36,427 bases of DNA from Armatimonadota bacterium (lineage in GTDB: Bacteria; Armatimonadota; UBA5829), in assembly GCA_029907315.1 (NCBI GenBank), contig JARYME010000024.1:1-36427 (forward strand), in the 5' to 3' direction. The notes under the pieces were generated by a model that was not told the origin of the DNA, did no database searches, and saw nothing but the letters and a program-made list of their open reading frames with translations. The translations under genes and the position numbers were made by a program. Position 1 is the first letter of the stretch. Each line of letters starts with the position of its first letter. Positions 6,876-36,379 of this stretch are shown here, one piece after another.

Positions 6876-6938
6876 AGCGGGTTTCTCTTTTTACGCTCCA
6901 ACAAATCCTAGCTTCCACAGATTGCGTTGTCCGGTCAG

Positions 6939-19882: not shown

Positions 19883-20235
19883 ACTTGTTTCCTCCCTTGC
19901 GGTTTGACGTTTTTCTACAGCTCTTTGCGTCGGTTTTTTTACTTACTGCTACGACGTGCTTGCAGCTCTCAGCGACTGGTTTACTTTTTCGTTTACCCAT
20001 CGACTGCAGCCGGTAAACAGTTCTGTGCGCCCGCTGCACGCTTTGCATGCCAAGGTAGTGCTGCAAGTTACTAACATCCATTGTCCTACCGATCAGTCCT
20101 CAGTCGACTTTTGATGGTTCTTTTTGTGCTCCTTCGATCCTCCCATTCGGACCTATTGAATGGCGGTGTGCTGACAATAATGTTAATGGTGGATGGGTTC
20201 ATTTTCGGAGAGGGCCATCAGGAGGACAGCTGCAC
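19883..20235. other. Divergent intergenic region between peroxiredoxin and pilM
   Basis: About 350 bp without a gene. It holds the SigB-like promoter candidate for the peroxiredoxin gene (19993-20018) with an extra GTTTAC at 19979-19984. Near pilM a weak TTGAAT-16-TAATGT lies around 20156-20183 as a possible pilus-operon promoter. AGGAGG precedes the pilM GTG by 10 nt. Confidence 0.5.
19993..20018 (-). promoter_or_regulatory. Candidate SigB-type promoter / inverted repeat upstream of peroxiredoxin
   Basis: On the minus strand GTTTAC (20013-20018), 14 bp, GGGTAA (19993-19998) fits the SigB-family consensus GTTTAA-N12-15-GGGTAT with one mismatch per box. The boxes are also part of a perfect inverted repeat, GTTTACC at 19991-19997 and GGTAAAC at 20012-20018, so an operator for a dimeric regulator is the alternative. 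Predicted transcription start is near 19985, about 100 nt before the peroxiredoxin ATG. Confidence 0.5.
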
Positions 20236-21357
20236 GTGTTGAGTTTTCTCTTCGCCAGGGAATCAGTCGTAGGAATCGACATAGGTTCGTCGATGCTGAA
20301 AGTGGTTGAGGCTGTTTCTACGAACACCGGCTGGGAGCTTCTGGCGGCTGCCGTCGATCAGACGCCACCGGAGGCGATTAAGGATGGGGTCGTAAAGGAC
20401 GTTCACGAAGTCGCGGCTGTAGTCCGCAGAATGCTGCGTGACGCCGGAATAAAAGCTGTCGGCGCCGTGTGCGGCATCTCGGGTTCGCAGGTAATAGTAA
20501 GGCAGGTACAGTTCCCCAAGATGCCTGAGGCTGTACTGCGAAAATCGATCAGATACGAAGCCGGCAAGTTCATATCAGCCTCCGTGGAGGACAGCATCGT
20601 TGAGTTTGAGATAGTCGGCGATGCTGAAGAACCGGGGCAAATGAATGTCTGGCTTGTAGCAGCACCCAGAGATATGGTCGACAGCCGAGTAGCGGTGCTG
20701 GAAGCAGCAGGGCTTGAACCCCTTGCCGTGGACGTAGAGGCCTTTGCTCTGATTCGATCGCTCGTCGAGCTCAGCTCTACCGACAGATTCCTCAACGAGA
20801 CGGTCGCGCTTGTAGACATGGGTGCAAGCCACACCGACGTGAACATCGTGAGCCGTGGAGAGTTCGCTCTTACCCGCAACATACCCATTGCGGGAGACAG
20901 CTTTACCAATGCAATCAAGAACCTCACCGCATGTTCGTTCGAGGAAGCTGAGCAGGCAAAACTGGAAATGACCAGCGACTGCCCACTGGACCAGTTTGAA
21001 GCAGCAGAGCGCGATAACCGCAACTGGCGAGCCGTTCAACCTTTGATCGACGAACTTATTCGAGAAATCAAACGCTCAGTCAACTTCTATCACTCGCAGT
21101 TTCCCGAGGGCGACACAGGCTCTTTCGTGAGCAGGGTGGTCCTTACAGGCGGCAGTTCGCAGATGGCTGGCATAGACAGATACATGGCGGCGAAGCTAGG
21201 TATCCAGACGGAAACGGCGCAGGTGTTTCGGGATACTGCCGTTTCGGCCGACACCTTGCCTGCAGAGTTGAAGGCGAAGCACGAGCCGGTGCTGGCTATA
21301 GGTACCGGCTTAGCCCTGAAGGAGCTTGTCGCTGACGTGAAGCAGAAAGCGGCTTAA
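20236..21357 (+). CDS. pilM: Type IV pilus assembly protein PilM
   Basis: The 373-residue protein has the actin-like fold of PilM: VGIDIGSSMLKVVEA at the start, a central ALVDMGASHTDVNIV phosphate-2 motif and VVLTGGSSQMAGIDRYMA near the end. PilM sits on the cytoplasmic side and binds the short N-terminal tail of PilN, linking the inner-membrane alignment complex to the motor. The start is GTG 20236, with AGGAGG 10 nt upstream. It is the first gene of pilMNOPQ; pilN follows after 79 bp. Confidence 0.95.
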   Translation: MLSFLFARESVVGIDIGSSMLKVVEAVSTNTGWELLAAAVDQTPPEAIKDGVVKDVHEVAAVVRRMLRDAGIKAVGAVCGISGSQVIVRQVQFPKMPEAVLRKSIRYEAGKFISASVEDSIVEFEIVGDAEEPGQMNVWLVAAPRDMVDSRVAVLEAAGLEPLAVDVEAFALIRSLVELSSTDRFLNETVALVDMGASHTDVNIVSRGEFALTRNIPIAGDSFTNAIKNLTACSFEEAEQAKLEMTSDCPLDQFEAAERDNRNWRAVQPLIDELIREIKRSVNFYHSQFPEGDTGSFVSRVVLTGGSSQMAGIDRYMAAKLGIQTETAQVFRDTAVSADTLPAELKAKHEPVLAIGTGLALKELVADVKQKAA

Positions 21358-21436: not shown

Positions 21437-22042
21437 ATGCCTTCCATCAATATGATTGCCCCGCGTAGAGCCGAAAAGCGAAAGCTCGAACGCGATATGC
21501 GTCGGCTCGTAGCGGTGATATTGGTTGAGCTCGTATGCGCTATTGCGCTTGGGGGTTGGCTGACAGCCCGTCTCGTGGCGACGCGCGGCCGCATAGCGGA
21601 CCTCGATGTCCAGCTTGCCAGGCTGAGACCGACAGTAAAACAGATCGAGGATTACGAGAGCGCCACAAGAAAGATCAAACCCAAGCTTGATTTGCTGAAC
21701 GAGGCTAGAGAGCGAACTTTGCGTTGGCATAGGATACTCGACGCACTGACCTCTAGTTTGCCCAAACCCAGTTATCTTACGCGGCTGACAACCAACCAGT
21801 CGACTGGGCGAGGCGAGTCCTCACCTACTGTGGCGCTCACAGGTATAACCGTCTCGCAGGCCATCATTGGCGAGGCGATGCTGCGACTTTCGTCGGTGCC
21901 AGACCTGGTTCAAGTGGATTTGAATTACAGCCAGCCGACCTCCGTCAATGGCGCGCCTGCAATCGAATTTGAGCTGGGCGCAAAGATGAAGGGTGAGAAA
22001 GATCGGAAAGGAGCACAAACCAATGGCCGCGTTCAATCTTAG
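21437..22042 (+). CDS. pilN: Type IV pilus assembly protein PilN
   Basis: The 201-residue protein has the PilN layout: a cytoplasmic tail with the conserved SINMIAPRR (the PilM-binding INLLP-like motif), one membrane helix around residues 24-45 (LVAVILVELVCAIALGGWLTA), a coiled-coil stretch, and a ferredoxin-like periplasmic domain. It pairs with PilO. AAGGAG lies 7 nt before ATG 21437. The last 20 bp overlap the start of pilO in a different frame, suggesting translational coupling. Confidence 0.92.
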   Translation: MPSINMIAPRRAEKRKLERDMRRLVAVILVELVCAIALGGWLTARLVATRGRIADLDVQLARLRPTVKQIEDYESATRKIKPKLDLLNEARERTLRWHRILDALTSSLPKPSYLTRLTTNQSTGRGESSPTVALTGITVSQAIIGEAMLRLSSVPDLVQVDLNYSQPTSVNGAPAIEFELGAKMKGEKDRKGAQTNGRVQS

Positions 22043-22790
22043 GGCGACGTCGAAGGCCGTGACAGTCCTTGTCATCGTGGCGGTGTTGGTTCTCTTCGCC
22101 ACGGTGCTTATGTATTTGGGGATGGCCGGAAAACTCCGAAGCGCGGTCTCGGAGATGCAAGCCAAAACCAAGCAGGTTGCTGAAAGCCGAAGTGTGGTTG
22201 AGAAGTTAGAAGCTACCAAACTGGCTTATCTCGATGCTCGCAGCCAGGTTCGGTTCTTGGAGACGTCTGTTTCGACACAAGAGTTCATACCTACCCTGCT
22301 CAAGCAGATCGAGCATCTCGGCAAATCGGTCAACCTCAAGGTGTTAGGCGTGCGTCCTTCGCTTGATGCCCAAAAACAGTCGGGTAAGAGGAGTCTTTCA
22401 AGCAGCAAACAGGCTTCTGAGGGCAATTTGGAGGAGGCTTCAAAGTCGGAAGCCGGCGGTGGCCGGGGCTCCGCGCGTAATTCGCGCCCTTACGATGAGC
22501 TCCAAATTGCCTTGCAGGTTGAAGGTTACTATATGGATCTTCTCGATTTTCTCTACCGGCTGACAACTTTCCCAAAAATAGTTGCGGTAGACAGCGTTGA
22601 AATCACGCCGCTCACCAGCAGATTACAAGGCACGGGCTCTCCGCGCCTGAATATGAAGCTTACTCTCACGGCATTCATACTCAGAGACGACAACAAACCT
22701 GAGAAGAACAAACTCCGACCCGGTTCGTCGATTCGGCCAGGGTCTTCCGACAATGTTCAGCTCAGGCAGGCAACGGGGGTGGCTGGGTAA
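22023..22790 (+). CDS. pilO: Type IV pilus assembly protein PilO
   Basis: The 255-residue protein has a short cytoplasmic end, one membrane helix (AVTVLVIVAVLVLFATVLMYLG), a coiled coil and a C-terminal domain with VEGYYMDLLDFLYRLTTFPKIVAVDSV, the typical PilO ferredoxin-like segment. A low-complexity Ser/Gly/Lys linker of about 40 residues lies before it. The frame opens at GTG 21993, but ATG 22023 has AAAGGAG 9 nt upstream and is preferred. It overlaps pilN by 20 bp and its stop overlaps the next ATG by one base (TAATG). Confidence 0.92.
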   Translation: MAAFNLRATSKAVTVLVIVAVLVLFATVLMYLGMAGKLRSAVSEMQAKTKQVAESRSVVEKLEATKLAYLDARSQVRFLETSVSTQEFIPTLLKQIEHLGKSVNLKVLGVRPSLDAQKQSGKRSLSSSKQASEGNLEEASKSEAGGGRGSARNSRPYDELQIALQVEGYYMDLLDFLYRLTTFPKIVAVDSVEITPLTSRLQGTGSPRLNMKLTLTAFILRDDNKPEKNKLRPGSSIRPGSSDNVQLRQATGVAG

Positions 22791-23443
22791 TGAAGCTCGA
22801 GCAGAAGAGAGCCATCGGATTGGCGGTTTTGGGCGTTGTAGTAGTTGCCTGCGTCGCCTACATTTCGTTTTCGGTTGCGGTGCCCAAAACGACCGGTGCA
22901 AAGACAGCTCAGCAAGTCGGCAAGGAACAACAGAAAACAGGATCGGACCAGGAATCGCGCCAAGACAGTGCCGTGGCTTCAGCGGAAGAGTTGTCTGCTG
23001 ACCGCCCACCGCTTCCGCGCAGGGACCCATTTGCGCTTCAGCCGCTGCCAGGCGAACAGCTTCAACAAAGCGTCACAGCTAGTCAGGCTGAGCGCCCTAG
23101 TAGGTCTTCGCGTTCCAAGTTCCGACTGCCACGGACGCCTAATCGCCTCCCGGCCATAGATGTTAAGCCGCTGAACCCGTTCGCAGGTGCTACTGAGAAC
23201 CCTCCAGTGCAGGCGCAGACTCCGCAACCAGAAGAGGAAATTACTGTGACGGGAGTGGTGAGGGGTGAAGGCAACGTGGCTATAGTCAGACTCGGAGAGT
23301 CAGGTAGGCATGTCGTGCGTGAGGGAGAAACGATCGACGGGCGCTATAGAGTCGCATCCATAACCACGGACCGCGTGGTTTTCATATACAACAACCGGCC
23401 CGTAGCCATCAAAGTGGGAGGAAACAAGAATGCTGCGAAATAG
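22790..23443 (+). CDS. pilP: PilP-like pilus assembly protein
   Basis: The 217-residue protein has an N-terminal membrane helix (GLAVLGVVVVACVAYISFSV), a long Pro/Gln/Ser-rich linker with RDPFALQPLPG and LNPFAG (typical DPF repeats of PilP), and a C-terminal beta-domain from about residue 150 (ITVTGVVRGEGNVAIVRLG through RVVFIYNNRPVAIKVGG) resembling the PilP/GspC HR domain that docks on the secretin. It lacks the lipobox of proteobacterial PilP and uses a membrane anchor instead. Position between pilO and pilQ supports the call. It overlaps pilQ by 14 bp. Confidence 0.82.
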   Translation: MKLEQKRAIGLAVLGVVVVACVAYISFSVAVPKTTGAKTAQQVGKEQQKTGSDQESRQDSAVASAEELSADRPPLPRRDPFALQPLPGEQLQQSVTASQAERPSRSSRSKFRLPRTPNRLPAIDVKPLNPFAGATENPPVQAQTPQPEEEITVTGVVRGEGNVAIVRLGESGRHVVREGETIDGRYRVASITTDRVVFIYNNRPVAIKVGGNKNAAK

Positions 23444-25907
23444 ACCATTAGGCCAGGCCGCATTTTTTATCTGTTGTGCTTTCTGCGCGGCGTGCACATT
23501 AATCCTTGCGCTGGCGGTCGAATGTTCGGCCGACAATGCTATAACCAGTGTCAAGGTGGTAAACACAGCAGACAAAGTGGTGATCACGGTGCGTGCCGAC
23601 GCGCCGCTTAAATTCGTGCCTCTCGTTTCAGCAGCAGGCAAATACATCGGATTCCAATTCCCCTGTGCACTTAGGACGAAGGGCGGCGCAGTACCGATCA
23701 GAAGCGGCGGGATATACAGTGTGCGGTACTCAAACTTCCAGGCCCAACCGCCGGTGTCTCGGGTTGTGGTCAACACGACCAAGCACCTCAAGTATTCCAC
23801 GCAGCGATCGGAAGACGGTAAGGAGTTCGAAATCTGTGTCTTCAAAGCCGTACGCACGCCCTTGGTACGTCCAGCGTCAGCAGCTGGCGCCCCTTCTGTA
23901 ATCGTTGGTAATTCCAATTCCAAGCCTGTGGCGGATGCTAAGGAGCAGGAAGCGCGGGTGGGTGCTGATTCAACTGACCAAAAGGTCGAACTCCCCGCTC
24001 AACAATCGGCTGCTGATCGCCTCTGGGCTTACAAAGCCATAGCTGAGCGCTCGAGATTGGCGGCACAAACTGCAAGGCAAGCCGACGCGCCGATTCAGGT
24101 CGCGTCTGCGAGTTTGAGCTTACCTGCTTCTCCGGAAAACGCAGTGCAGCCGCTAAGTAGAGTACCGGGGTCTGTCCAAACGACTGGTGAGCCCGACGCG
24201 GTGGAGCCTTCGCACCAGCCGGCAGATTCGGCTGAGTCGCTCGGCAGCGATGCTCCGAGAAGAGTCGCGTTGGCGAATCCTGGCATCCAGCGTGCCAGTT
24301 CTCCGGAACGAAAGGTCTCGGTTAACTTCCTTGGCGCGGACATAAATGATGTTCTAAAAGCCCTGTCGGTTCAGAGCGGCAAGAATATCGTCTCCAGCAA
24401 GGATGTTACAGGGAACGTAACGGTCAGTCTGTCGAATGTCAGCCTGGAAGAAGCATTGGACTACGTTACCAAATTGAGCGGCTACACATACACCAAAGAC
24501 GGCGATACGTACCTGGTCTCCACAAAGGAATCCCTTCGATCGCTGACGGGCGAATCGAGTCCGGATGCCAAGACGGAGCTGGTGAAGCTCAGCTACGCGA
24601 AAGCGGACGATGTTGTTGCACTGCTCAAATCTCGTTTCCCCGACATTTTAGTTAGCAAAGTCGGGGTAGAACCAGCTCCTAAAGCTGCTGGCGAGCAACC
24701 CGGCACCCAGAGCCCGGTCGGACAGAAGAATAATCTGTTGGTCTTGTCCGGACCGGCGGAATCAGTTGCGGAAGCGAGAAAGCTGGCCGAACAATTCGAG
24801 CAGACCTTGCGTGTACAGGCGATTCAGTCGACGAGAGCAACGTACCGGGTAAAGTTTGCCAGCCCTTCGCAGCTTGCTCAGACACTGATGGCATTGGTAC
24901 CCGGCGTGGAAGTTGTTTTCGCCCCGACCAGCGATTTCGAGTTGGTCAGATTCAAATCGGCTAAAACGAGCCCGGGACAAGCTCCGCAGGTTGAGCGCGA
25001 GTTCGATACTGCAGGCAACAAGAGCACAGGTGATCCAAGTAGGGGGGCTGTTCCCGGAGCGGGTGCAGACCCAACGGGAAAGGGCGGAGGTCCCGCCGGG
25101 CCTGTTACCAACGCTCGCACGATCGTTATAGTTGGCGACGAACAGTCAGTAGCCAAGGCCCTCGAGATAGCGCAGCAGCTTGACGTGAAGGCCCCTCAGA
25201 TAAAGATAGACGCCAAGATCAGCAGTATAAACAAAACGGGCGAGAAGAAGCTTGGCTTGGAATGGCAGTGGGGAGACTTGGTGGTTCTGGAGGGGTTCAC
25301 GGACTACGATAAGACGACAGATATGCTCCCCACGGGCGACAACAAGCAAAACGTCCGGATTGCCCACAAGAAGATGTACCGGCAGCCGTGGGACTTCGCC
25401 GCAACGCTTGACGCGCTTGTCACAAGCGGAGACGCCCAGGTGTTAGCTTCGCCGAGTATTGTATGCCTGGAGCGCAACCCGGGGGTGTTCTTTGTGGGCG
25501 ATGAGGTCACATACGTGCAAAGAGTGGAGACGACACCGACCGGACAGAACATTCTTACGGATACCAAGCGAGTTGGCGTGCAGATGGTTGTGGCTGGTGA
25601 AATCAATGACGACGGCTACATCACGCTTTACTTGCATCCGGAAGTGAGTACGCTCAAGCTGTCGGTCGAGCAGGGTGTGGCGCTTCCAATAGTTTCGAGT
25701 CGCTTCACGGACCACGTAGTGCGCGTCAAGAGCGGTCAGACCATCGTCATAGGAGGCTTGATCAGGAGCGACGAGGTTGAGGAAATGCGGAAGGTGCCCT
25801 TCCTCGGCGATTTACCGCTGTTCGGTCAACTGTTCAGGCACACGCAGAAGACTAAGGATGAGACTGAGGTAGTTATGTTCATAACGGCCTCGATCCTTCA
25901 GGACTAG
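23430..25907 (+). CDS. pilQ: Type IV pilus secretin PilQ
   Basis: The 825-residue protein is the outer-membrane secretin through which the pilus exits. In order: a signal sequence (about residues 1-35), an AMIN-type domain (about 38-140), a long low-complexity linker, an STN/N0 domain (about 294-360: VNFLGADINDVLKALSV), secretin N domains (about 383-500) with a Gly-rich insert near 535, and the secretin barrel (about 575-825) with ASPSIVCLERNPGVFFVGDEV, VVRVKSGQTIVIGGLI and VPFLGDLPLFGQLFR. GGGAGG lies 8 nt before ATG 23430. It is the last gene before a pair of hairpins that separates pilMNOPQ from pilBTC. The presence of a secretin implies a diderm cell envelope. Confidence 0.95.
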   Translation: MLRNRPLGQAAFFICCAFCAACTLILALAVECSADNAITSVKVVNTADKVVITVRADAPLKFVPLVSAAGKYIGFQFPCALRTKGGAVPIRSGGIYSVRYSNFQAQPPVSRVVVNTTKHLKYSTQRSEDGKEFEICVFKAVRTPLVRPASAAGAPSVIVGNSNSKPVADAKEQEARVGADSTDQKVELPAQQSAADRLWAYKAIAERSRLAAQTARQADAPIQVASASLSLPASPENAVQPLSRVPGSVQTTGEPDAVEPSHQPADSAESLGSDAPRRVALANPGIQRASSPERKVSVNFLGADINDVLKALSVQSGKNIVSSKDVTGNVTVSLSNVSLEEALDYVTKLSGYTYTKDGDTYLVSTKESLRSLTGESSPDAKTELVKLSYAKADDVVALLKSRFPDILVSKVGVEPAPKAAGEQPGTQSPVGQKNNLLVLSGPAESVAEARKLAEQFEQTLRVQAIQSTRATYRVKFASPSQLAQTLMALVPGVEVVFAPTSDFELVRFKSAKTSPGQAPQVEREFDTAGNKSTGDPSRGAVPGAGADPTGKGGGPAGPVTNARTIVIVGDEQSVAKALEIAQQLDVKAPQIKIDAKISSINKTGEKKLGLEWQWGDLVVLEGFTDYDKTTDMLPTGDNKQNVRIAHKKMYRQPWDFAATLDALVTSGDAQVLASPSIVCLERNPGVFFVGDEVTYVQRVETTPTGQNILTDTKRVGVQMVVAGEINDDGYITLYLHPEVSTLKLSVEQGVALPIVSSRFTDHVVRVKSGQTIVIGGLIRSDEVEEMRKVPFLGDLPLFGQLFRHTQKTKDETEVVMFITASILQD

Positions 25908-26080: not shown

Positions 26081-27814
26081 ATGCAACAAACCGAACCGAT
26101 CGGTGAGATATTCGTACGAAAGGGACTCATAACGCGGGACCAGCTTCGGCAGGCTCTCGAAAGGCAAAAATTGCTCAAGAGGCAGGAGAGCCTGGGCGAT
26201 GTGCTGGTGAGTATGGGATTCATTACTGAAAAAGACCGCGTTATGTGTCTCGGAGAACAGTGGGGAGTGCCGTACGTAGAGCTCAACGACCTGGAGGTCG
26301 ACAGCTCCGTAATCAAGCTTGTGCCCCAGAGCACTGCTAGAAAACTCAAAGTCGTACCCATAGGCAGAAAGAATGGCAAGCTCACCCTTGCCATGAAAAA
26401 CCCCCTCGACATATTTGCTATTGATGAGGTGCGGATGGTCGCAGGTGTAGATGTTGAGCCTGCAATAGCTCTTGAAGAAGACATACTCAACGCCATCAGC
26501 CGGCTCTACCGCGCCGAGGCAAACGTTTCTGAACAGGTTTCCGAAGTCATCAAAGAGTTCGATACCGAACAAATCGACATCACCAGTGTTGAGGGCTACG
26601 AAGACGACGAAGACAACATTTCGATTGAACACCTGCGGGAGCTTTCCGAAGAAGCACCTGTCATAAAGCTGGCAAACCTGATAATCAGCAGAGCGGTGTC
26701 CGATGGAGCGAGCGATATACACATTGAGCCTGCCAGAGATTGTGTGCGGGTGCGCCTGCGAATCGACGGGATACTTCACGAGATTATGCAGATACCCAAA
26801 AAAGTGCAGCCGTCGCTCATCTCACGGTTCAAGATTATGGCTGAGATGGACATTGCGACCAAGCGCTCGCCGCAGGACGGTCGAATAAGCGCTGTCATTG
26901 ATGGTAAACCTTATGACTTCCGCGTTTCTACTCTACCCTCTGTATTCGGGGAAAAGGTGGTACTGAGAATTCTCGACAAGAGCGCAATATGTATCGGTCT
27001 TCATAAGTTGGGGCTTCTTCCGGAAACCCTGGAAAAGTTTGAGAGTCTGATAGCACGGACCTACGGCATAATACTTGTCACTGGCCCGACCGGAAGCGGC
27101 AAGTCCACAACCCTATATTCGGTTTTGTCCAAGCTGAACTCGGGCGAAAAGAATATACTCACCATAGAAGATCCTGTTGAATATGAGCTTCCCGGGCTCA
27201 CGCAAGTTCAGATCAATCCTCGGGCGGGGCTGACTTTTGCCGCGGGCCTGCGGACCATGCTTCGACAGGACCCGGACATAATAATGGTCGGCGAAATTCG
27301 CGACGCCGAGACGGCGACCATCGCCACGGAGGCCGCACTGACGGGCCACCTCGTGCTGTCCACGTTGCACACCAACGATGCTCCCGGGGCGCTTACGAGA
27401 CTGATCGATATGGGCATCGAACCCTTTCTGATTGCATCTAGCGTTATCGGTGTGATGGCCCAAAGGCTCGTGAGGGTGGTCTGTCCCAAGTGCAAAGAGC
27501 AGTACCAGCCTCCGCGGGATGCTTTGAAGCGCCTTGGTATCGAGCTGGATGGCCAGAGCAGGGTAACGTTTTTCCGTGGCAGGGGGTGCGACTACTGCCG
27601 CGGCAGCGGCTACAGAGGCCGCGTCGGCGTATACGAATTGATGATTATGAACGATCAAATACGTGACCTGGTGCTTCGCAAGGCTTCTGCACACGTGATA
27701 AAAGAAGCTGCCATAGAGTCCGGCATGAAAACGCTCAGGGAAGATGCCATTGCGAAGATACTACTTGGCCAAACCACTCTCGAAGAGTGCTTGCGAGTTA
27801 TCTACGCAGGTTAA
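26081..27814 (+). CDS. pilB: Type IV pilus extension ATPase PilB
   Basis: The 577-residue protein is the hexameric motor that drives pilus extension. The N-terminal MshEN-like domain shows two tandem 24-residue motifs, at about residues 6-29 and 37-60 (IGEIFVRKGLITRDQL; LGDVLVSMGFITEKD). In the motor domain, Walker A GPTGSGKST lies near residue 335. The Asp box (ILTIEDPVEY), Walker B (DPDIIMVGEIRD), His box (GHLVLSTLHTND) and the zinc-binding CPKC and CDYC pairs follow. The Arg that opens each MshEN c-di-GMP motif is Pro6 and Ser37 here, so ligand binding is uncertain. GGGGA precedes the ATG. pilT follows after 9 bp. Confidence 0.96.
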   Translation: MQQTEPIGEIFVRKGLITRDQLRQALERQKLLKRQESLGDVLVSMGFITEKDRVMCLGEQWGVPYVELNDLEVDSSVIKLVPQSTARKLKVVPIGRKNGKLTLAMKNPLDIFAIDEVRMVAGVDVEPAIALEEDILNAISRLYRAEANVSEQVSEVIKEFDTEQIDITSVEGYEDDEDNISIEHLRELSEEAPVIKLANLIISRAVSDGASDIHIEPARDCVRVRLRIDGILHEIMQIPKKVQPSLISRFKIMAEMDIATKRSPQDGRISAVIDGKPYDFRVSTLPSVFGEKVVLRILDKSAICIGLHKLGLLPETLEKFESLIARTYGIILVTGPTGSGKSTTLYSVLSKLNSGEKNILTIEDPVEYELPGLTQVQINPRAGLTFAAGLRTMLRQDPDIIMVGEIRDAETATIATEAALTGHLVLSTLHTNDAPGALTRLIDMGIEPFLIASSVIGVMAQRLVRVVCPKCKEQYQPPRDALKRLGIELDGQSRVTFFRGRGCDYCRGSGYRGRVGVYELMIMNDQIRDLVLRKASAHVIKEAAIESGMKTLREDAIAKILLGQTTLEECLRVIYAG

Positions 27815-27823
27815 GGAGGGACT

Positions 27824-28951
27824 ATGCGAGGCGAACTGGCTGTCGACGATCTCAGTGACTTTTTGGCGGAGTCGGACGCACCGTCTGTTGAAGATGTGCA
27901 TCTGGATGACCTGCTCCGGGAGGCTTCGGAGCGGGGAGCCTCGGATTTACATTTGACGGTAGGGTTGCCGCCTGTAATACGAGTGGATGGTTCGCTAACG
28001 CACCTGAGATATCAGCCGCTGTCACCCAGCGACACGCAGAGGCTTGTTTACGACATACTAACCACGGATCAGGTTCAGCACTTCGAGACTGTTCATGAAC
28101 TCGACTTCTCTTATGGAGTGCGCGGCGTAGGCAGGTACCGAGTGAATGTTTATAAACAGCGCGGAAGTGTAGGTGCGGCGCTTCGCAGCATACCGGATCG
28201 TATCCCAACTTTTGAGCAGCTCAATCTTCCTCCTATTCTGCGCGAACTCAGCCGCAGGACCAGTGGACTGATACTCGTGACTGGACCCACCGGCAGCGGC
28301 AAGTCTACTACCATCGCCTGCATGATCGACACGATCAATTCGGAAAGACCCGTGCACATAATGACAATTGAGGATCCAATCGAGTATCTTCACCGCCACA
28401 AGAGAGGCATGGTCAACCAGCGGGAACTCGGCACGGACACAGATTCCTTCGCCAACGCCTTGCGTGCTGTCCTGCGAGAAGATCCCGACGTCATACTCAT
28501 CGGCGAGATGCGCGATCTCGAAACGATACAGGCCGCATTAACCCTTAGCGAAACAGGTCACTTGGTCTTCGGTACGCTGCACACGCGCAACGCCCCGCAA
28601 ACAATAGACAGAGTGATCGACGTGTTCCCTCCGCATCAGCAGGAGCAGATTAGGGTGCAACTTTCCAATACCCTCGAGGCAGTCATAGCGCAGCAGTTGA
28701 TGCCCAGAATAGGGGGCGGACGAATCGTGGCGCTGGAGATACTGGTTGCGACTTCTGCCGTCCGCAATCTGATTCGGGAGGGGAAGTCTCATCAGATATA
28801 CAGCGCCATCGAAACCGGTGCCCAGTACGGCATGCAGACAATGGACAAATCTCTTGCCGATCTTTACCGGAACGGCATTATCACCTTGGAGGAGGCGGAA
28901 GCGCGCTCGATAGACCGGGAGAACCTTAAACGTTTCCTGCAAGGAGGCTGA
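27824..28951 (+). CDS. pilT: Type IV pilus retraction ATPase PilT
   Basis: The 375-residue protein is the retraction motor. It has DLLREASERGASDLHLTVGLPP near the N-terminus, Walker A GPTGSGKST near residue 155, the Asp box MTIEDPIEY, Walker B DPDVILIGEMRD, the His box GHLVFGTLHTRNA, and the PilT-specific AVRNLIREGKSHQ (AIRNLIRE motif) required for retraction. An N-terminal extension of about 25 acidic residues precedes the usual start. AAGGAGG lies just upstream of ATG 27824. pilC follows after 55 bp, placing all three motor and platform genes in one unit. Confidence 0.96.
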   Translation: MRGELAVDDLSDFLAESDAPSVEDVHLDDLLREASERGASDLHLTVGLPPVIRVDGSLTHLRYQPLSPSDTQRLVYDILTTDQVQHFETVHELDFSYGVRGVGRYRVNVYKQRGSVGAALRSIPDRIPTFEQLNLPPILRELSRRTSGLILVTGPTGSGKSTTIACMIDTINSERPVHIMTIEDPIEYLHRHKRGMVNQRELGTDTDSFANALRAVLREDPDVILIGEMRDLETIQAALTLSETGHLVFGTLHTRNAPQTIDRVIDVFPPHQQEQIRVQLSNTLEAVIAQQLMPRIGGGRIVALEILVATSAVRNLIREGKSHQIYSAIETGAQYGMQTMDKSLADLYRNGIITLEEAEARSIDRENLKRFLQGG

Positions 28952-29006: not shown

Positions 29007-30224
29007 GTGCCGACGTTTGCTTACACAGCGATAGACGCGAACGGCAAAACTGTCAAGGGCCGCACGGACGCGGAAAGCGAAAACATTTTGCTTTCCAAGC
29101 TTCACGCCCAAAACCTTCACGTGCTCTCAATCAATGAGGAGAAGACCGAAGCCGCGAAGAACGCGGGCGGCGCGGCTCCTTCCGGAAAGAAAGTGAAGCT
29201 GAAGAACCTGGTCGTCTTCAGTCGTCAGTTTGCGACGATGATAGACGCCGGGGTGGCTATAGTCCGGTGTCTGGACATATTGGAAAACCAGACTAAGGAC
29301 CCGGTTCTGAAATCGGTCATCGCACAGTGCAAGAAGGACGTGAAGGGCGGAATGAGTCTCACGGACGCATTTGCCAAGCACCCTAACGTCTTTTCCCGTC
29401 TCTACGTAAACATGGTCAAGGCTGCAGAGACTGGTGGAATCCTTGACAAGATATTGGATCGCCTGGCTACGTTTCTCGAAACCGAACAGGAGGTCCGCTC
29501 CAAGATCAAGTCGGCGATGATATATCCGATACTGGTGCTCGTCTTCGCGTTATGTATGGTGGTAGGCCTTTTCATGTTTGTTCTGCCGAAGTTCAAAGAA
29601 CTGTTCGATTCACTTGACGTCGAACTGCCTGCAGCTACACGTGCGCTCTTTGGGATTAGCGAGATGATGCGCTCCTACTGGTACGTTGGCCTCGTGGGGA
29701 TTGTTGCCGGCACCATTGCATACAAGTGGTACAGGAATACCGACCAGGGCGCCTGGCAAATAGATATGCTCAAGCTCAAGTTTCCTGTCATCGGCGAGTT
29801 GGTTCAGAAGATGGCGATCTCGCGGTTTGCTCGAACTTTTGCAACGCTGATACATAGCGGCGTGCCAATGATGAGATCGCTGGAGATTGTTGGTGAGACG
29901 GCGGGCAATAGGGTTATAGCGCACGCCGTCGAAAACGCCCGTAGCGCAATAAGGGAAGGTCAAAAGATCAGTGTTCCTCTGGCGCAGAGCGGGTTGTTTC
30001 CTGGTATGGTGACTCACATGATCGATGTGGGTGAGGAGACTGGTCGGTTGTCGGATATGCTTGCGAAGGTGTCGGATTTCTACGATCAGGAAGTCGAGAA
30101 CGCCGTGAAGGCTTTGACATCTCTGATCGAGCCTTGCTTGATTGTAGTCATGGGCGGCATTGTAGGGTTCATAGCTGTTTCCATTATGGCGCCCATATTC
30201 AAGCTTATCAGTGCGGTAGGTTAG
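29007..30224 (+). CDS. pilC: Type IV pilus inner-membrane platform protein PilC
   Basis: The 405-residue protein has the GspF/PilC layout: PTFAYTAIDANGKTVKGR at the start, then two repeats of the T2SSF domain (about residues 68-190 with FSRQFATMIDAGVAIVRCLD, and 270-395 with FARTFATLIHSGVPMMRSLE), each followed by membrane helices. ETGRLSDML and the final SLIEPCLIVVMGGIVGFIAVS are typical. It is the platform on which PilB and PilT act. The start is GTG 29007, with GGGAGG 9 nt upstream. The sigma-GGDEF gene begins 81 bp downstream with no strong terminator between. Confidence 0.96.
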   Translation: MPTFAYTAIDANGKTVKGRTDAESENILLSKLHAQNLHVLSINEEKTEAAKNAGGAAPSGKKVKLKNLVVFSRQFATMIDAGVAIVRCLDILENQTKDPVLKSVIAQCKKDVKGGMSLTDAFAKHPNVFSRLYVNMVKAAETGGILDKILDRLATFLETEQEVRSKIKSAMIYPILVLVFALCMVVGLFMFVLPKFKELFDSLDVELPAATRALFGISEMMRSYWYVGLVGIVAGTIAYKWYRNTDQGAWQIDMLKLKFPVIGELVQKMAISRFARTFATLIHSGVPMMRSLEIVGETAGNRVIAHAVENARSAIREGQKISVPLAQSGLFPGMVTHMIDVGEETGRLSDMLAKVSDFYDQEVENAVKALTSLIEPCLIVVMGGIVGFIAVSIMAPIFKLISAVG

Positions 30225-30305: not shown

Positions 30306-31652
30306 ATGATGCGACCTGCCAGCGGTAGAAAACTCACTGAAGAAGAGATCCAAAACCTCATTGCCGAATATGCTAAAACGAAGGATCCGGCAATTCGTGA
30401 TGAAATCGTTATGCAGTATACGAACCTCGTGGAGAGCGTGGCTCGGCGTTTCCTTGGCGCCTGCGAACCGCCTGAGGATCTGGTACAGGAAGGTTTTGTA
30501 GGTTTGATCAGGTCTGTGGACAAATACGATCCGGCTATGGGAGTCAAGTTTTCCACTTATGCCACGCACTTTATCATCGGTGAAATAAAGCACTATCTGC
30601 GCGACAAGGGCAAGATGATAAAGGAACCGGCTTGGCTGCAAGAGCTCAATCAGAAGATGACCAGGGTTGTTGAGTCGCTGAGCCAGGCTCTTGGGCGGAC
30701 TCCAACCGAGAAAGAAATAGCGCAAGTTATGCAAATGCCGGAAAGCAGCATCAGGGAGCTCCTGATGACCAGGGAGGTATTCAAGGTTACCTCGCTCGAC
30801 GGAGAGCGTGAGGATGCTTCCGGGCCCAAAGAGTCTGAGAAGATAAAGGACGAGAAGCTAATTGCTTTTCAGCTGCCGGTAGAGGACAAGATCGTCCTGG
30901 AGACGGCCCTTCAGAAGCTCAAAGACATAGAGCAACAAGTCATATACTCACACTTCTACAAGGGTCTCAATCAGACTGAAATCGCCAAGCAGTTGGGCAT
31001 AAGCTGCAATTACGTCTCTCACATACTCCGCAACGGAACGAAGAAGCTCAGAAAGATTCTGATAACCGATGAGGTAAGGGATATACAAATCCAACGCGCT
31101 TTGCTATCTACGCGTGCGAAAGAAGGTCGGCAGATCGAGCCAGAGAGCGTGCTTGATCCAACTACACGCGTGTACAACCGGCGCTATTTTCTTCAACGAC
31201 TTGATGAGGAACTAAGTCGGGCTTTCCGCGAACGTTACACGGTTGCTCTGCTGCTCGTAGATGTCAAGCTGCCGGATAACATGGACCGCTACCTTCGCTT
31301 GATTCGCAAGGACGACATATTGTTTGAGGTAGCACAGACAATCCGCAGCAACGTTCGTAAAATGGATTTGGTGGCGCGAATCGGGGACCAGTGCTTCGGC
31401 TTGATCCTTCCGCATACGTTTGAGCACGCCGCAACAGTAGCGGAACGCTTGAGTAAGTTGGTGCAGTCTGTGTCGGTCGATCCCGGCCGCGGTGCAGCGC
31501 AGCTATCTTGTTCTGGGCGCATTGGAGTAGCAAAGTACCCGGCTGATTCCCTGGACAGCCGAGGGCTTTTGCAAGCAGCAGCGTCCCAGCTTGATTTGGA
31601 CCTTGAAGAATTAATGAACGAACCTACAGAGCGGTTCGGCCTAGCTGCATAG
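30306..31652 (+). CDS. SigB-like sigma factor fused to a degenerate GGDEF domain
   Basis: The 448-residue protein joins two modules. Residues about 30-255 are a group 3 (SigB/SigF-like) sigma factor: region 2 (EDLVQEGFVGLIRSVDKYDP, then FSTYATHFIIGEIKHYLRD), region 3 (LGRTPTEKEIAQVM) and region 4 (YKGLNQTEIAKQLGISCNYV, helix-turn-helix). Residues about 282-435 are GGDEF-like: DPTTRVYNRRYF (283-294), metal-site Asp319, RKMD at 351-354, GDQCF at 360-364 where GG[D/E]EF is expected, and RIGVAKYP. The active motif is lost while the RxxD inhibitory site is kept in exact register, so it is probably a c-di-GMP sensor, not a cyclase. It is the last gene of the pilus cluster. GGAGAG precedes ATG 30306; ATG 30309 is an alternative. 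Confidence 0.88.
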   Translation: MMRPASGRKLTEEEIQNLIAEYAKTKDPAIRDEIVMQYTNLVESVARRFLGACEPPEDLVQEGFVGLIRSVDKYDPAMGVKFSTYATHFIIGEIKHYLRDKGKMIKEPAWLQELNQKMTRVVESLSQALGRTPTEKEIAQVMQMPESSIRELLMTREVFKVTSLDGEREDASGPKESEKIKDEKLIAFQLPVEDKIVLETALQKLKDIEQQVIYSHFYKGLNQTEIAKQLGISCNYVSHILRNGTKKLRKILITDEVRDIQIQRALLSTRAKEGRQIEPESVLDPTTRVYNRRYFLQRLDEELSRAFRERYTVALLLVDVKLPDNMDRYLRLIRKDDILFEVAQTIRSNVRKMDLVARIGDQCFGLILPHTFEHAATVAERLSKLVQSVSVDPGRGAAQLSCSGRIGVAKYPADSLDSRGLLQAAASQLDLDLEELMNEPTERFGLAA

Positions 31653-31814: not shown

Positions 31815-31843
31815 TTGACACGGCGTATTTTCGGGGATAGACT
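31815..31843 (+). promoter_or_regulatory. Sigma-70 promoter of the C1 peptidase gene
   Basis: Perfect TTGACA (31815-31820), 17 bp, TAGACT (31838-31843). Transcription is expected near 31850, about 34 nt before ATG 31884. The TTG that opens the longer reading frame is part of this -35 box. Confidence 0.85.
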
Positions 31844-31883
31844 GCGAAAAGATGGCATAACCTCACCAAGGGGTCTTTGGAGT

Positions 31884-34800
31884 ATGTACTCCTTTCATCG
31901 GCTCTGTTCTGCGATGCTGAGTTGCTTCGCAGCATTTGTGCTTTGTACGGTGTGTTGGACGGCGGAGCCCAGTGTTGCTCCGCACAATCCGGCATTTGAG
32001 CGGTTTATTGCATCAGTCGCGGTAGCTACTTTAGGTTTTCCCAATGGGGAGCATGGCTTGGGTTTGGTGCCGCCCCCTCTGGATCTCTCGCACAACAAGG
32101 GCAAGCGCGTCTCGATAGATGGTGCGCTGCTTTTGGGTCTGCCGCCATCTTTTGATCTGCGAGCACTTTCACAGCCAAAGTTGACACCGGTTAGGAACCA
32201 GGGCAACTGCGGCAGTTGCTGGGCGTTTGCTTGTTATGGGTCGCTGGAGTCGTGCTTGCTGCCGGGTGAGCTCTTCGACTTCTCAGAAAACCATTTGAAG
32301 AATACCCACGGTTTCGACAGCTCCTGTTGTGACGGTGGCAACCACTGGATGACCACAGCTTATGTTGCACGTTGGTCGGGACCTGTGTTGGAGTCCGACG
32401 ATCCTTACAACGCGTCCTCGTGCGTGTCCCCACAGAATGTGCCTGTTGCCAAACATATTCAGAGGGTTGATTTCCTGCCAGATCGCTCCGGACCGCTGGA
32501 CAACGACAACATCAAGCAAGCAGTAATGACCTACGGTGCGGTCTACACTTCGTTTTATTGGAACAGCAGCTACTACAATGCGTCTACGTATTCCTATTAC
32601 TACGACAAGACCTCAAACGAAGCTAACCACGCAGTTTGCATAGTCGGCTGGGACGACAACTACGACAAGAACCGTTTCCTCACTCCACCGCCTGGAAACG
32701 GGGCCTTTATTGTCAGAAACAGCTGGGGATCCGGTTTCGGACAGGGGGGTTACTTCTACATTTCCTACTACGATACGCTTATTGGCTTTCAGAACGCAGT
32801 TTTCGCAGCGGCAGAGGATGTTACGAACTATGATCAGGTTTACCAATATGATCCCCTTGGTTGGACCAGCAGCCTGGGCTACGGCGACTACACTGCTTGG
32901 TTCGCTAACGTTTTTACTGCCGCCTCGAATGCCGAGCTGCGAGCTGTAAGTTTCTACACTGCATCTCCCAATTCGACCTACGAGCTTCGGGTTTACCTGG
33001 ATCCTGACGCGGGACCTATTCGCACGACTGGTGCGGCGTATACGCAGTCCGGCACGATTACTAACGCAGGTTATCAGACCGTTACCCTCAATTATGGTGT
33101 CGGCATATCGGGCGGACAAAGATTCTCGGTAGTGGTCAGGCTTACCACTCCGAATTACAAGTACCCGGTGCCCTTCGAACAGCCTATAAGTGGTTATTCG
33201 AGCGGCGCAACAGCCAGCCCCGGACAAAGCTACATAAGCCCCAACGGAGTGTCGTGGACAGATCTTACTTCCGTATACTCCAACTCCAATGTGTGTCTCA
33301 AGGTTTTTGCTGTTTCGCGCGGCGGAATCTCAGTTGAGCCCACGACCGACCTTATAGCGTGCGGACCCATCGGCGGCCCGTTTGTGCCCTCTGAGGCTGT
33401 ATACCGGATCACCAACAACGGATATGCGAGTGTTCAGTGGAGAGCGGAGTCCGACAGCCCTTGGGTCAGGCTCTCAGCCGTAGCCGGAACTCTGGCACCC
33501 GGCGAGAGCTGCGAGGTCACCGTCTCGGTTGACTCGTCAGCTGCTAATCTGCCTCCTGGCCACTATACGGCGTTGGTCAGTTTCACGAATCTGACAAACG
33601 GAAATGGCAGCACGACGCGACACGTTGTCATGGATGTGTTCACGCCTTATCAGATTAGACCTACGCGTTTCGCATGGATAGACCCGACCAATCACTCTGA
33701 GCTTGTACTTAGCGACGACGGTGTCAGCCAGGCAATCTCAATTCCATTCGAGTTCAGTCTGTATGATAGGCCTTTCCAAGAAATCTATGTCGGTGCCAAT
33801 GGGTTAGTTGGTTTCCTGAACGTGAATCTCAACTCATACGCCAACACTGACATTCCCTCTGCTGAGTTTCCCAATGCTGCTTTGTATGCCTATTGGGACG
33901 ACCTGAACCCGGCTGCGGCTGGTAGTGTGCGTGTTGGAGTTGAGGGCACTGCACCGAACCGAAAACTTGTTGTTAGTTGGGTAGGGGTTCCGCCTTTCTA
34001 CGCACGTGAGAGCACGCTGTACTTCCAAGTTGTGCTTTTTGAGGGTACACAGGACGTACTTTTCCAATACTTAGATGTGAAACCGGCGGACATGATCTAC
34101 GGCGCCGGGCGAAGTGCGACTATTGGCGTCGAGAACATCTGCGGTACATTTGCAGCCAAGTACTCTTACAACGGCAGCTCACTGCTCGACAATCATCGAG
34201 CCCTGCTTTTCTCTTCGCGCGGTTCTGAGATCTCAGATCTCAAATGTTTGCCGGATGGAGCAAGTGTGGTGGTCAGAAGGGCTGTGGTTACAAGGGTGCT
34301 TGGTAACGTGTTCTACATAGAATCTGATGACAGGGTAGCGGGAATTCGCGTGTCTGCGCTTGCTCACTCATTGGCACCTGGAATGAGAGCGGATGTTATA
34401 GGCGTCCTTACGACCAATGCGGGCGGCGAGCGCTGTATACAGGCATCGTGGGTACATCAGTCAGGCGAAGGATTCGTTGAACCGATTGGTATGAGCGGTG
34501 CGTCAATTGGAGGCAGCGACTACTCATACAACCCGGAAACGGGGTCCGGACAACGCGGAGTCACAGCCTGGCGCAAAGTTTGGGTCGATGGTCAAGGATG
34601 GCGGTGGGACTCATTCAAGGTGCCAGGACCGAACAACATCGGTTTGCTCATAAAGACCTGGGGTCGTGTAACGTGGTGCGGGAGTGACGAGTTCTACATA
34701 GACGATGGGTGCAATCTCAAGGATGCGAGTGAGCACCACGGTCTGAGAGTGTCCGCGCCTAATTTGACCCTTCCCAACGTGGGTGATTTTGTCGAAGTAA

Positions 34801-34889
34801 CCGGCGTAGTGTCGTGTTGGCAGGCAGACGGTGCTTTATACAGGATGCTGCTTGTGGCTGACCAAGCGGATATAAGCGTTTTGAATTGA
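31884..34889 (+). CDS. Secreted multidomain papain-family (C1) cysteine peptidase
   Basis: The 1001-residue protein begins with a signal sequence (about residues 1-27, hydrophobic and ending near WTA). A C1A peptidase domain follows: oxyanion Gln106 and nucleophile Cys112 in NQGNCGSCWAFA, His249 in NEANHAVCIVGWDD and Asn279 in VRNSWG. Next come a lectin-like beta-domain (about 315-460), an Ig/BACON-like domain (about 463-570, with SPWVRLSAVAGTLAPGES), a beta-sandwich module (about 590-750: IYVGANGLVGFLN, ALYAYWDDLNP) and two OB-like modules (about 765-830 and 915-1000). ATG 31884 is used because the -35 box overlaps the longer frame's TTG start and AAGGGG lies upstream. All catalytic residues are intact. 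No sorting signal or transmembrane anchor is visible at the C-terminus. Substrate unknown. Confidence 0.9.
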   Translation: MYSFHRLCSAMLSCFAAFVLCTVCWTAEPSVAPHNPAFERFIASVAVATLGFPNGEHGLGLVPPPLDLSHNKGKRVSIDGALLLGLPPSFDLRALSQPKLTPVRNQGNCGSCWAFACYGSLESCLLPGELFDFSENHLKNTHGFDSSCCDGGNHWMTTAYVARWSGPVLESDDPYNASSCVSPQNVPVAKHIQRVDFLPDRSGPLDNDNIKQAVMTYGAVYTSFYWNSSYYNASTYSYYYDKTSNEANHAVCIVGWDDNYDKNRFLTPPPGNGAFIVRNSWGSGFGQGGYFYISYYDTLIGFQNAVFAAAEDVTNYDQVYQYDPLGWTSSLGYGDYTAWFANVFTAASNAELRAVSFYTASPNSTYELRVYLDPDAGPIRTTGAAYTQSGTITNAGYQTVTLNYGVGISGGQRFSVVVRLTTPNYKYPVPFEQPISGYSSGATASPGQSYISPNGVSWTDLTSVYSNSNVCLKVFAVSRGGISVEPTTDLIACGPIGGPFVPSEAVYRITNNGYASVQWRAESDSPWVRLSAVAGTLAPGESCEVTVSVDSSAANLPPGHYTALVSFTNLTNGNGSTTRHVVMDVFTPYQIRPTRFAWIDPTNHSELVLSDDGVSQAISIPFEFSLYDRPFQEIYVGANGLVGFLNVNLNSYANTDIPSAEFPNAALYAYWDDLNPAAAGSVRVGVEGTAPNRKLVVSWVGVPPFYARESTLYFQVVLFEGTQDVLFQYLDVKPADMIYGAGRSATIGVENICGTFAAKYSYNGSSLLDNHRALLFSSRGSEISDLKCLPDGASVVVRRAVVTRVLGNVFYIESDDRVAGIRVSALAHSLAPGMRADVIGVLTTNAGGERCIQASWVHQSGEGFVEPIGMSGASIGGSDYSYNPETGSGQRGVTAWRKVWVDGQGWRWDSFKVPGPNNIGLLIKTWGRVTWCGSDEFYIDDGCNLKDASEHHGLRVSAPNLTLPNVGDFVEVTGVVSCWQADGALYRMLLVADQADISVLN

Positions 34890-34909: not shown

Positions 34910-35650
34910 CTAGTCGTCTTCACATTGAGCTGCTGCTAAGGCTTCTGACAAGGTAAGCGTTCCCGAATACAGAGCGGTGACAACTACAACTGCTTCTACT
35001 CCTAGTGGTTCCAGCTTCTTTAGGGCTTTGATATCTTGGATATTGCGCACGCCGCCGGAAGCAATGATGGGCACTGGTACTGCTTCCGCCATTCGCTTGA
35101 CGGCAGATACGTTTACCCCGCCGTGCAGACCCTTTCGCGAAACGTCTGTGAAAACCAAGCGTTTTGCACCCAAAGCTACCATGCGCTTTGCGAAGTCTTC
35201 CGCCCTTTCGTCAGTTCTCGCTTGCCAGTCTCGCACAGCCACATAGCCGTTTAGGCTGGCTACGCTTATAATCGTCCGACTTCCCAGCGCATCCAGTATT
35301 TCCTGAGCTAACTCTTCCTCCAACGCTGCGGTAGTTCCAATAACGATGCGGTCCGCGCCGGCATTGAGAACCTGTTTTGCTTGTTTGAGGCTTCTAATGC
35401 CGCCTCCAAAGTCTAGGCGGAGCCCCTCTGGGATGGCGTTCAATATGGCAGGTATCGCGTTGAGGTTCTGCGGGTCTCCCATTCGAGCGCCGTCAAGGTC
35501 TGCCAAATAAAGTCTCGTAGCTCCTTGGTCCGCCCAGACCTTGGCGACTTCTACTGGGTTGTGCGAGAAAACTCCCGTGCGCGCAAAAGACATATGCACA
35601 GGGCAGACGGATTTCCCGTCCATCAAATCTATGCCCGGAATTACTTCCAT
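34910..35650 (-). CDS. Diverged HisA paralogue, catalytic residues substituted
   Basis: The 246-residue TIM-barrel protein aligns with the neighbouring HisA over its full length (VIPGIDLMDGK, ADQGATRLYLADLDGA, DFGGGIRSLKQA, IIASGGVRN, ALYSGTLTLSEAL). Asp8 and both phosphate-binding GG loops are kept. The second catalytic Asp (Asp129 of the neighbour) is Ala131, and the Asp of TDISRDG (171) is Lys173. The substrate loop after DGK is also rewritten (SVCPVHMSF instead of CVRLHQGRF). It therefore is unlikely to catalyse the ProFAR Amadori rearrangement. It starts 6 nt after the hisA stop. It could be a HisA-like enzyme with another aminoaldose substrate or a regulatory partner; function unknown. 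Confidence 0.85.
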   Translation of the reverse strand: MEVIPGIDLMDGKSVCPVHMSFARTGVFSHNPVEVAKVWADQGATRLYLADLDGARMGDPQNLNAIPAILNAIPEGLRLDFGGGIRSLKQAKQVLNAGADRIVIGTTAALEEELAQEILDALGSRTIISVASLNGYVAVRDWQARTDERAEDFAKRMVALGAKRLVFTDVSRKGLHGGVNVSAVKRMAEAVPVPIIASGGVRNIQDIKALKKLEPLGVEAVVVVTALYSGTLTLSEALAAAQCEDD

Positions 35651-35656
35651 ACTCAG

Positions 35657-36379
35657 TTAACTCGCCGCAGCAACTGCATCTGAAAACTTCAGCTCGCCGG
35701 AGTAGAGAGCTTTTCCGAGGATCGCGCCTTCGACTCCCAGCGGTTCCAATTCCTTGAGAGCTATGATGTCGTTCACGGTGGTTATGCCACCTGAGGCTAT
35801 CACGGGTATCGAAAGAGCTTCGGCCATCAGCCGTATGCTTGGGATGTTGGCTCCGGCCAATGTCCCGTCGCGGGAAATGTCGGTATAGATAATGCGCGGT
35901 GCTCCGAGTTTTTCCATGCGCCTTGCAAAGTCTGCTGCGTCTTCAGCAGTTGTTTCAAGCCAACCCTTGAGTGCCACTTTTCCGCCACGGGCGTCTATGG
36001 CGAGCACGACTTTCTCCCCCAACGCTTGGAACAGTTCGCGTGCAAGACCTGAATCCAGAACAGCGGAGGTTCCTACAATGACGCGCTCCACGCCGAAATT
36101 CAGAAGTCGGATGGCTGTTTCTAAGGTTCTTATGCCGCCGCCGACTTGCACCGGCACGTCTGTGGCAGCTAGGATGCGTTCAAGAGAGGTAATCTCCTGC
36201 GGCTCGCCGACCACCGAGCCCTTAAGGTCGACCACGTGGATCCGCGTAGCACCTTGGTCGGTCCACATCTTGGCAGCGTCTGCAGGGTCGTCGAAGTAAA
36301 CCGTTACCTGATCGAATCTGCCTTGATGGAGGCGAACACACTTGCCATCTAAGATGTCTATGGCAGGAATTATCTCCAC
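35657..36379 (-). CDS. hisA: ProFAR isomerase HisA
   Basis: The 240-residue protein is full-length HisA, which isomerises ProFAR to PRFAR in histidine synthesis. It has IIPAIDILDGKCVRLHQGRFD with the general-base Asp8, VGGGIRTLE (first phosphate loop), AIDARGGKVALKGW with the general-acid Asp129, YTDISRDGTLAGAN with Thr166 and Asp171, and VIASGGI (second phosphate loop). The start is GTG 36379. No Shine-Dalgarno sequence is seen; a TATACT lies only 7 nt upstream at 36387-36392, so either the transcript is leaderless or translation is coupled to a gene beyond the window edge. The diverged paralogue follows after 6 bp. Confidence 0.95.
   Translation of the reverse strand: MEIIPAIDILDGKCVRLHQGRFDQVTVYFDDPADAAKMWTDQGATRIHVVDLKGSVVGEPQEITSLERILAATDVPVQVGGGIRTLETAIRLLNFGVERVIVGTSAVLDSGLARELFQALGEKVVLAIDARGGKVALKGWLETTAEDAADFARRMEKLGAPRIIYTDISRDGTLAGANIPSIRLMAEALSIPVIASGGITTVNDIIALKELEPLGVEGAILGKALYSGELKFSDAVAAAS

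Follow-up and report, generated by a model that had tools for sequence, protein, structure and literature searches.

The sigma-GGDEF fusion and its locus

We analyzed a 36,427-nucleotide stretch of DNA from an Armatimonadota bacterium (GenBank assembly GCA_029907315.1, contig JARYME010000024.1), hereafter called the window, and focused on a gene that encodes a sigma factor continuing into a degenerate GGDEF domain. The gene closes a type IV pilus operon with the order pilM-pilN-pilO-pilP/T2SSC-like-secretin-pilB-pilT-pilC-fusion (Table 1). The original prediction, made from the sequence alone, had proposed that cyclic di-GMP (c-di-GMP) acts directly on this sigma factor, and its claim that sigma regions 2 to 4 and the GGDEF domain share one frame was borne out by a single open reading frame (ORF) of 448 codons, in which the Pfam matches to all four domains lay above their gathering cutoffs. 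Detection of regions 2, 3, and 4 places the N-terminal half among the sigma-70 factors. Its best NCBIfam model was SigB/SigF/SigG (186.9 bits, below the cutoff of 234.35), and the FliA/WhiG profile, with 112 bits against 187, was not the best match; the sigma half thus appears to be related to SigB/F/G, with a score that does not certify membership in the subfamily. In fold searches, the sigma half retrieved sigma factors in polymerase complexes, including Staphylococcus aureus SigB, while the C-terminal half retrieved GGDEF domains, with Thermotoga maritima 4urg at the top (template modeling score of 0.87 by target length).

Table 1. Positions in the window of the fusion gene, its domains and motifs, and the associated pilus genes
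Feature	Position	Strand	Evidence
Sigma-GGDEF fusion gene, 448 aa	30306..31652	+	Single ATG-initiated ORF
Sigma-70 region 2, residues 35-102	30408..30611	+	Pfam PF04542, 3e-19
Sigma-70 region 3, residues 113-158	30642..30779	+	Pfam PF04539
Sigma-70 region 4, residues 201-250	30906..31055	+	Pfam PF04545, 1.7e-14
Predicted continuous helix, residues 234-274, region 4 to GGDEF	31005..31127	+	AlphaFold2 model
Degenerate GGDEF domain, residues 282-429	31149..31592	+	Pfam PF00990, 1.2e-23; fold match 4urg
Conserved helix face R298, E301, E302, R305, R308	31197..31229	+	WspR alignment, conservation
I-site RxxD, R351-D354	31356..31367	+	Kept in 125/126 orthologs
Degenerate active-site loop GDQCF, residues 360-364	31383..31397	+	GG[DE][EQ]F in 0/126 orthologs
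R381, third I-site arginine position	31446..31448	+	124/126 orthologs
Predicted pilus-operon promoter, CTATTGAATGGCGGTGTGCTGACAATAAT	20153..20181	+	Footprint; sole 0-mismatch genome match
pilM	20236..21354	+	PF11104
pilN	21437..22039	+	PF05137
pilO	21993..22787	+	PF04350
pilP/T2SSC-like	22790..23440	+	PF11356
Secretin (pilQ)	23430..25904	+	PF00263
pilB with MshEN domain	26081..27814	+	PF00437, PF05157
pilT	27824..28951	+	PF00437
pilC, immediately 5' of fusion	29007..30224	+	PF00482; synteny

The full-length fusion was found in one frame in 188 of 291 Armatimonadota genomes (E <= 1e-54) and in 109 of 156 genera. The orthologs, 35 to 82% identical, are spread through the phylum, and those listed are free of internal stops. 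This contradicts the suspicion, raised in the original prediction itself, that homologs might always be encoded as two genes, and an origin of the fusion in a sequencing error or frameshift, for which we found no point in favor, can be regarded as refuted. A quick tree (support 71) separated 37 fusion sigma halves from 20 stand-alone paralogs by 1 change, compared with 16.6 in shuffles; since the sigma halves form one group, the data fit, but do not prove, a single origin followed by vertical descent. No plasmid record covered 80% of the fusion protein. The N-terminal extensions of orthologs L046, L052, L056, and L059 contain no additional Pfam domain, and in L052, L149, and L157, the extension overlaps pilC and seems to reflect an incorrect start call. 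Our searches, which covered a set of open-access papers but no subscription papers, preprints, or domain-architecture databases, yielded no description of a sigma-GGDEF architecture.

The link to the pilus genes extends beyond the window. In 80 of approximately 118 assessable loci, pilC lies immediately 5' of the fusion and in the same orientation, with a median gap of 90 bp, and in three further loci it is masked by an overlong ORF start. In distant families, the operon is reduced to the pilC-sigma pair. An ortholog of pilM occurs in 154 of the 188 genomes with the fusion and in 23 of the 103 without it (kinship ignored), and both this ortholog and the fusion are missing from four members of the window's own family (G006, G007, G010, and G012). 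The type IV pilin N-terminal methylation motif (PF07963) was matched 57 times in the window's own genome (G000), an uncommonly high number. The MshEN domain, which binds c-di-GMP in other species, is represented in PilB by two N-terminal repeats without the usual leading arginine.

A catalytically degenerate GGDEF domain with a conserved I-site

The C-terminal domain carries GDQCF in place of the active motif and, five residues ahead of it, RKMD as an RxxD inhibitory site (I-site), exactly where the original prediction had located them, and the C-terminal AD-x-ALY motif is indeed gone. Loss of the active site (A-site) is general in the family: none of 126 orthologs has the GG[DE][EQ]F motif, the metal-binding aspartate is D in just 21 of them, and the guanine-binding asparagine is lost. 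Retention of an active cyclase in some relatives was thereby ruled out. The I-site behaves in the opposite manner. R305 is present in all 126 orthologs, R381 in all but two, and RxxD in all but one (L059), which no longer matches the GGDEF profile. In this ortholog (family f9, 6074-7801, + strand), the sigma half is intact, and the C-terminal half has neither a GGDEF match nor RxxD. Relative-entropy ranking of the columns, done on an initial set of about 67 orthologs, put D354, R305, R381, and R351 at the top of the GGDEF domain, and all four are I-site positions.

The comparison set consisted of 32 intact cyclase domains encoded by these genomes, all with an invariant A-site. These have RxxD in 24, an arginine at the R305 position in 16, and one at the R381 position in 24 cases. 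RxxD by itself was therefore dropped as evidence, and the argument rests on the column ranking and the additional arginines. Loss of the A-site together with an I-site kept more strictly than in cyclases indicates that selection abandoned catalysis and tightened the I-site. Judged by its sequence, the GGDEF domain of the fusion is catalytically dead, and its I-site is kept under selection, so that what had been noted for one protein is a phylum-wide rule that also covers R305 and R381.

We take R305 and R381 to be the equivalents of PleD R313 and R390. In the alignment with WspR, R351 and D354 correspond to R242 and D245, R305 corresponds to R195, and R308 corresponds to R198, a secondary I-site arginine; the RxxD five residues ahead of the motif and the secondary arginines expected of an I-site receptor are both present. 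In WspR, the c-di-GMP dimer is held by R242 and by R198 of the neighboring molecule (PMC2270323). The face formed by R298, E301, E302, and R305 is far better conserved in the fusions than in the intact cyclases and could be a pairing surface. The same face would suit a domain that serves as a docking module for a cyclase or phosphodiesterase and leaves c-di-GMP itself unbound, an explanation that we consider unlikely because docking gives no reason for the most conserved residues to be precisely the arginines and the aspartate of the I-site. Reception of another nucleotide (cyclic di-AMP, a hybrid cyclic dinucleotide, ppGpp, or GTP) appears less probable still: ligand identity is unreadable from sequence and the basic I-site pocket could fit another cyclic dinucleotide, but the residues that were kept match the c-di-GMP I-site of WspR, and every fusion-bearing genome encodes at least one GGDEF domain besides the fusion.

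Promoters linked to the sigma gene and its predicted targets

In the family closest to the window, a conserved block, CTACAGTTG-N-TGACGATAATC, lies 5' of pilM, and the window's own version is CTATTGAATGGCGGTGTGCTGACAATAAT. In families f8, f17, and f22, CTCCAGTTT-N14/15-CRATAAT occupies the same place. The promoter before pilM, present in families f1, f8, f17, and f22, has the general form CTNCAGTTT-N~14-CRATAAT. This resembles the flagellar promoter consensus, which consists of a -35 element, TAAA, and a -10 element, GCCGATAA (PMC8325347). A regular expression for this pattern matched 20 times in 1.48 Mb of loci and 0 times in the reversed control, and 19 of the 20 matches precede pilM or the sigma gene (some loci overlap, so that the distinct sites are fewer).

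We then searched with a position weight matrix trained solely on the pilM promoters (site threshold, p <= 0.01). Of the 43 loci where the sigma gene does not lie behind pilC, 16 had a site 5' of the sigma gene, compared with 0.43 expected; of the 80 loci where pilC directly precedes it, none did. In family f22, a site is also found 5' of pilC, and 24 of 31 loci of family f16 have a CCGANAAT-type -10 element 5' of pilC (4 antisense; 1.6 on average in shuffles). Upstream of pilM in f16, where most upstream stretches look coding, we did not find the promoter (1 sense and 3 antisense matches). Seventeen genomes lacking the fusion had no such site before pilM or its paralog (0/17). Whole-genome matches to the f1 pattern with one mismatch were no better than the reversed control and were discarded; hence, pilM is the sole f1 site that we claim. 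Overall, a promoter of the FliA/WhiG class precedes pilM, pilC, or the sigma gene itself. That the promoter follows the gene points to autoregulation and makes the fusion sigma factor the likely reader of the pilM-type promoter.

A scan of the f11 and f23 genomes allowing two mismatches gave 52 matches, compared with 15 in the control. In G033, G069, G078, and G079, the 0-mismatch match is in each case the sigma gene itself, and most of the weaker matches that were checked fall within ORFs and resemble background. Promoter-placed matches were found before cheW, before flgB, which is followed by flgC- and fliE-like ORFs, and before genes for an MshEN ATPase, three GGDEF proteins, a protein with an HD domain (HD_5), an exosortase, and a rhomboid protein. 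As the ten promoter-placed target genes were picked by eye for Pfam analysis, they are leads only, suggesting that in some lineages the regulon may also cover flagellar, chemotaxis, and c-di-GMP enzyme genes. At most one GGDEF domain besides the fusion was found in 2 of the 188 genomes with the fusion and in 34 of the 103 without it (kinship ignored). In two 1.5-Mb genomes (G167 and G168) without a pilM match, the fusion supplies one of exactly two GGDEF domains, possibly a minimal c-di-GMP circuit. The window itself encodes an HD_5 protein (PF13487; 11502-12695, + strand) that is HD-GYP-like, with HDIGK and HHEKVSGRGYP, and is a candidate c-di-GMP phosphodiesterase.

Elsewhere in the window, a large C1 cysteine peptidase gene with lectin-like and BACON-type domains lies directly 3' of the fusion (31815-34889, + strand), and two adjacent ORFs that look hisA-like by eye form a tandem pair (34910-36379, - strand).

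Proposed mechanism and relation to known systems

Taken together, these data make it probable that the fusion is an alternative sigma factor whose dead GGDEF domain serves as a c-di-GMP receptor, that is, an autoregulated pilus and motility sigma factor gated in cis. The original interpretation is partly supported: I-site retention and catalytic loss stood, and the absence of an anti-sigma partner was borne out for the genes next to the fusion in the window. It had overlooked the pilus operon together with the promoters and the probable regulon. We infer c-di-GMP binding and dimerization as follows. An intercalated c-di-GMP dimer would bind R351, D354, and R381, and R305 and R308 of a second molecule would complete the site, as in WspR. 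Binding would alter how the GGDEF domains pair and where they are placed; transmitted by the helix continuing from region 4, this rearrangement would change how the sigma factor reaches the core polymerase or the -35 element. In this scheme, the sigma factor would read the flagellar-class promoter before the pilus operon to which it usually belongs, the promoter before its own gene where that gene lies outside the operon, and, in some lineages, promoters of flagellar, chemotaxis, and c-di-GMP enzyme genes. By analogy with RsiG-WhiG, our guess leans toward c-di-GMP keeping the sigma factor off. The fuller proposal, that c-di-GMP dimers cross-link two sigma factors through their dead GGDEF domains and so control an autoregulated pilus and motility regulon that dates from early Armatimonadota and has no separate anti-sigma factor, is one toward which we lean slightly.

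Several observations weigh against this reading. RxxD is common in ordinary GGDEF domains and alone proves little. The AlphaFold2 model (mean predicted local distance difference test score [pLDDT], 85; predicted template modeling score, 0.46) allows the individual domains to be trusted, but not their relative arrangement, and pLDDT drops to about 60 to 70 at the end of the helix of residues 234 to 274. The fusion is kept in families f11 and f23, which lack this pilM ortholog; two genomes (G213 and G220) have the pilM promoter, yet no fusion above the threshold; and some genomes with several GGDEF domains have no fusion. In addition, the genomes are related, so that the counts are not independent. 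Finally, the window's own genome has 13 HATPase_c_2 (RsbW-type) hits, one of them adjoining a stand-alone SigF-like paralog (C151) that has no GGDEF domain, which makes an anti-sigma partner of the fusion in trans possible. An ordinary SigF-like sigma factor controlled by such a partner, with the GGDEF domain as a passive remnant for dimerization or stability, is nevertheless very improbable, as the I-site residues are kept at 98 to 100% despite loss of the A-site and no anti-sigma gene adjoins the fusion in the window.

If our reading is right, the fusion would provide a minimal tool in which a second messenger gates a sigma factor directly. For type IV pili in a phylum that has seen few experiments, the reading also predicts the regulator, the promoter, and some of the regulated genes. 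SigB/SigF with RsbW, represented here by paralog C151, is the closest sigma family by profile, and the paralog differs from the fusion in its missing GGDEF domain and its RsbW-like neighbor. The ECF41 and ECF42 groups of extracytoplasmic function (ECF) sigma factors carry C-terminal regulatory extensions and thus, like the fusion, a regulatory domain in cis; unlike the fusion, they are ECF-type and have other domains, and we know of no ECF-type sigma factor with a C-terminal extension that senses c-di-GMP. The I-site residues map one to one onto those of the product-inhibited diguanylate cyclases WspR and PleD, whereas the fusion lacks the catalytic residues and its output is a sigma factor. 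PopA, SgmT, and CdgG are degenerate-GGDEF c-di-GMP receptors with an I-site which, like the fusion, have lost the A-site and kept RxxD; unlike in these, R305 is kept throughout the fusion family. To our knowledge, the characterized receptors of this type include no sigma factor.

Control of a sigma factor by c-di-GMP is known to operate through a separate anti-sigma protein. In Rubrobacter, WhiG is gated by c-di-GMP via RsiG, a protein that the source study found in Actinobacteria only, and pil genes and genes for diguanylate cyclases and phosphodiesterases are its predicted targets, with the same promoter class (PMC8325347). The fusion resembles the WhiG-(c-di-GMP)2-RsiG switch of Streptomyces and Rubrobacter in its predicted gating by c-di-GMP and in its flagellar promoter class, and its predicted targets resemble those of Rubrobacter WhiG. 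The receptor of WhiG, however, is a separate coiled-coil anti-sigma factor with E(X)3S(X)2R(X)3Q(X)3D motifs, while the receptor proposed here is the I-site of a GGDEF domain in the same polypeptide as a SigB/F-type sigma factor, in another phylum. If true, the same wiring would have arisen twice, from different parts, and would be tied to the same pilus regulon, and the fusion would be a one-protein counterpart of RsiG-WhiG kept across much of Armatimonadota.
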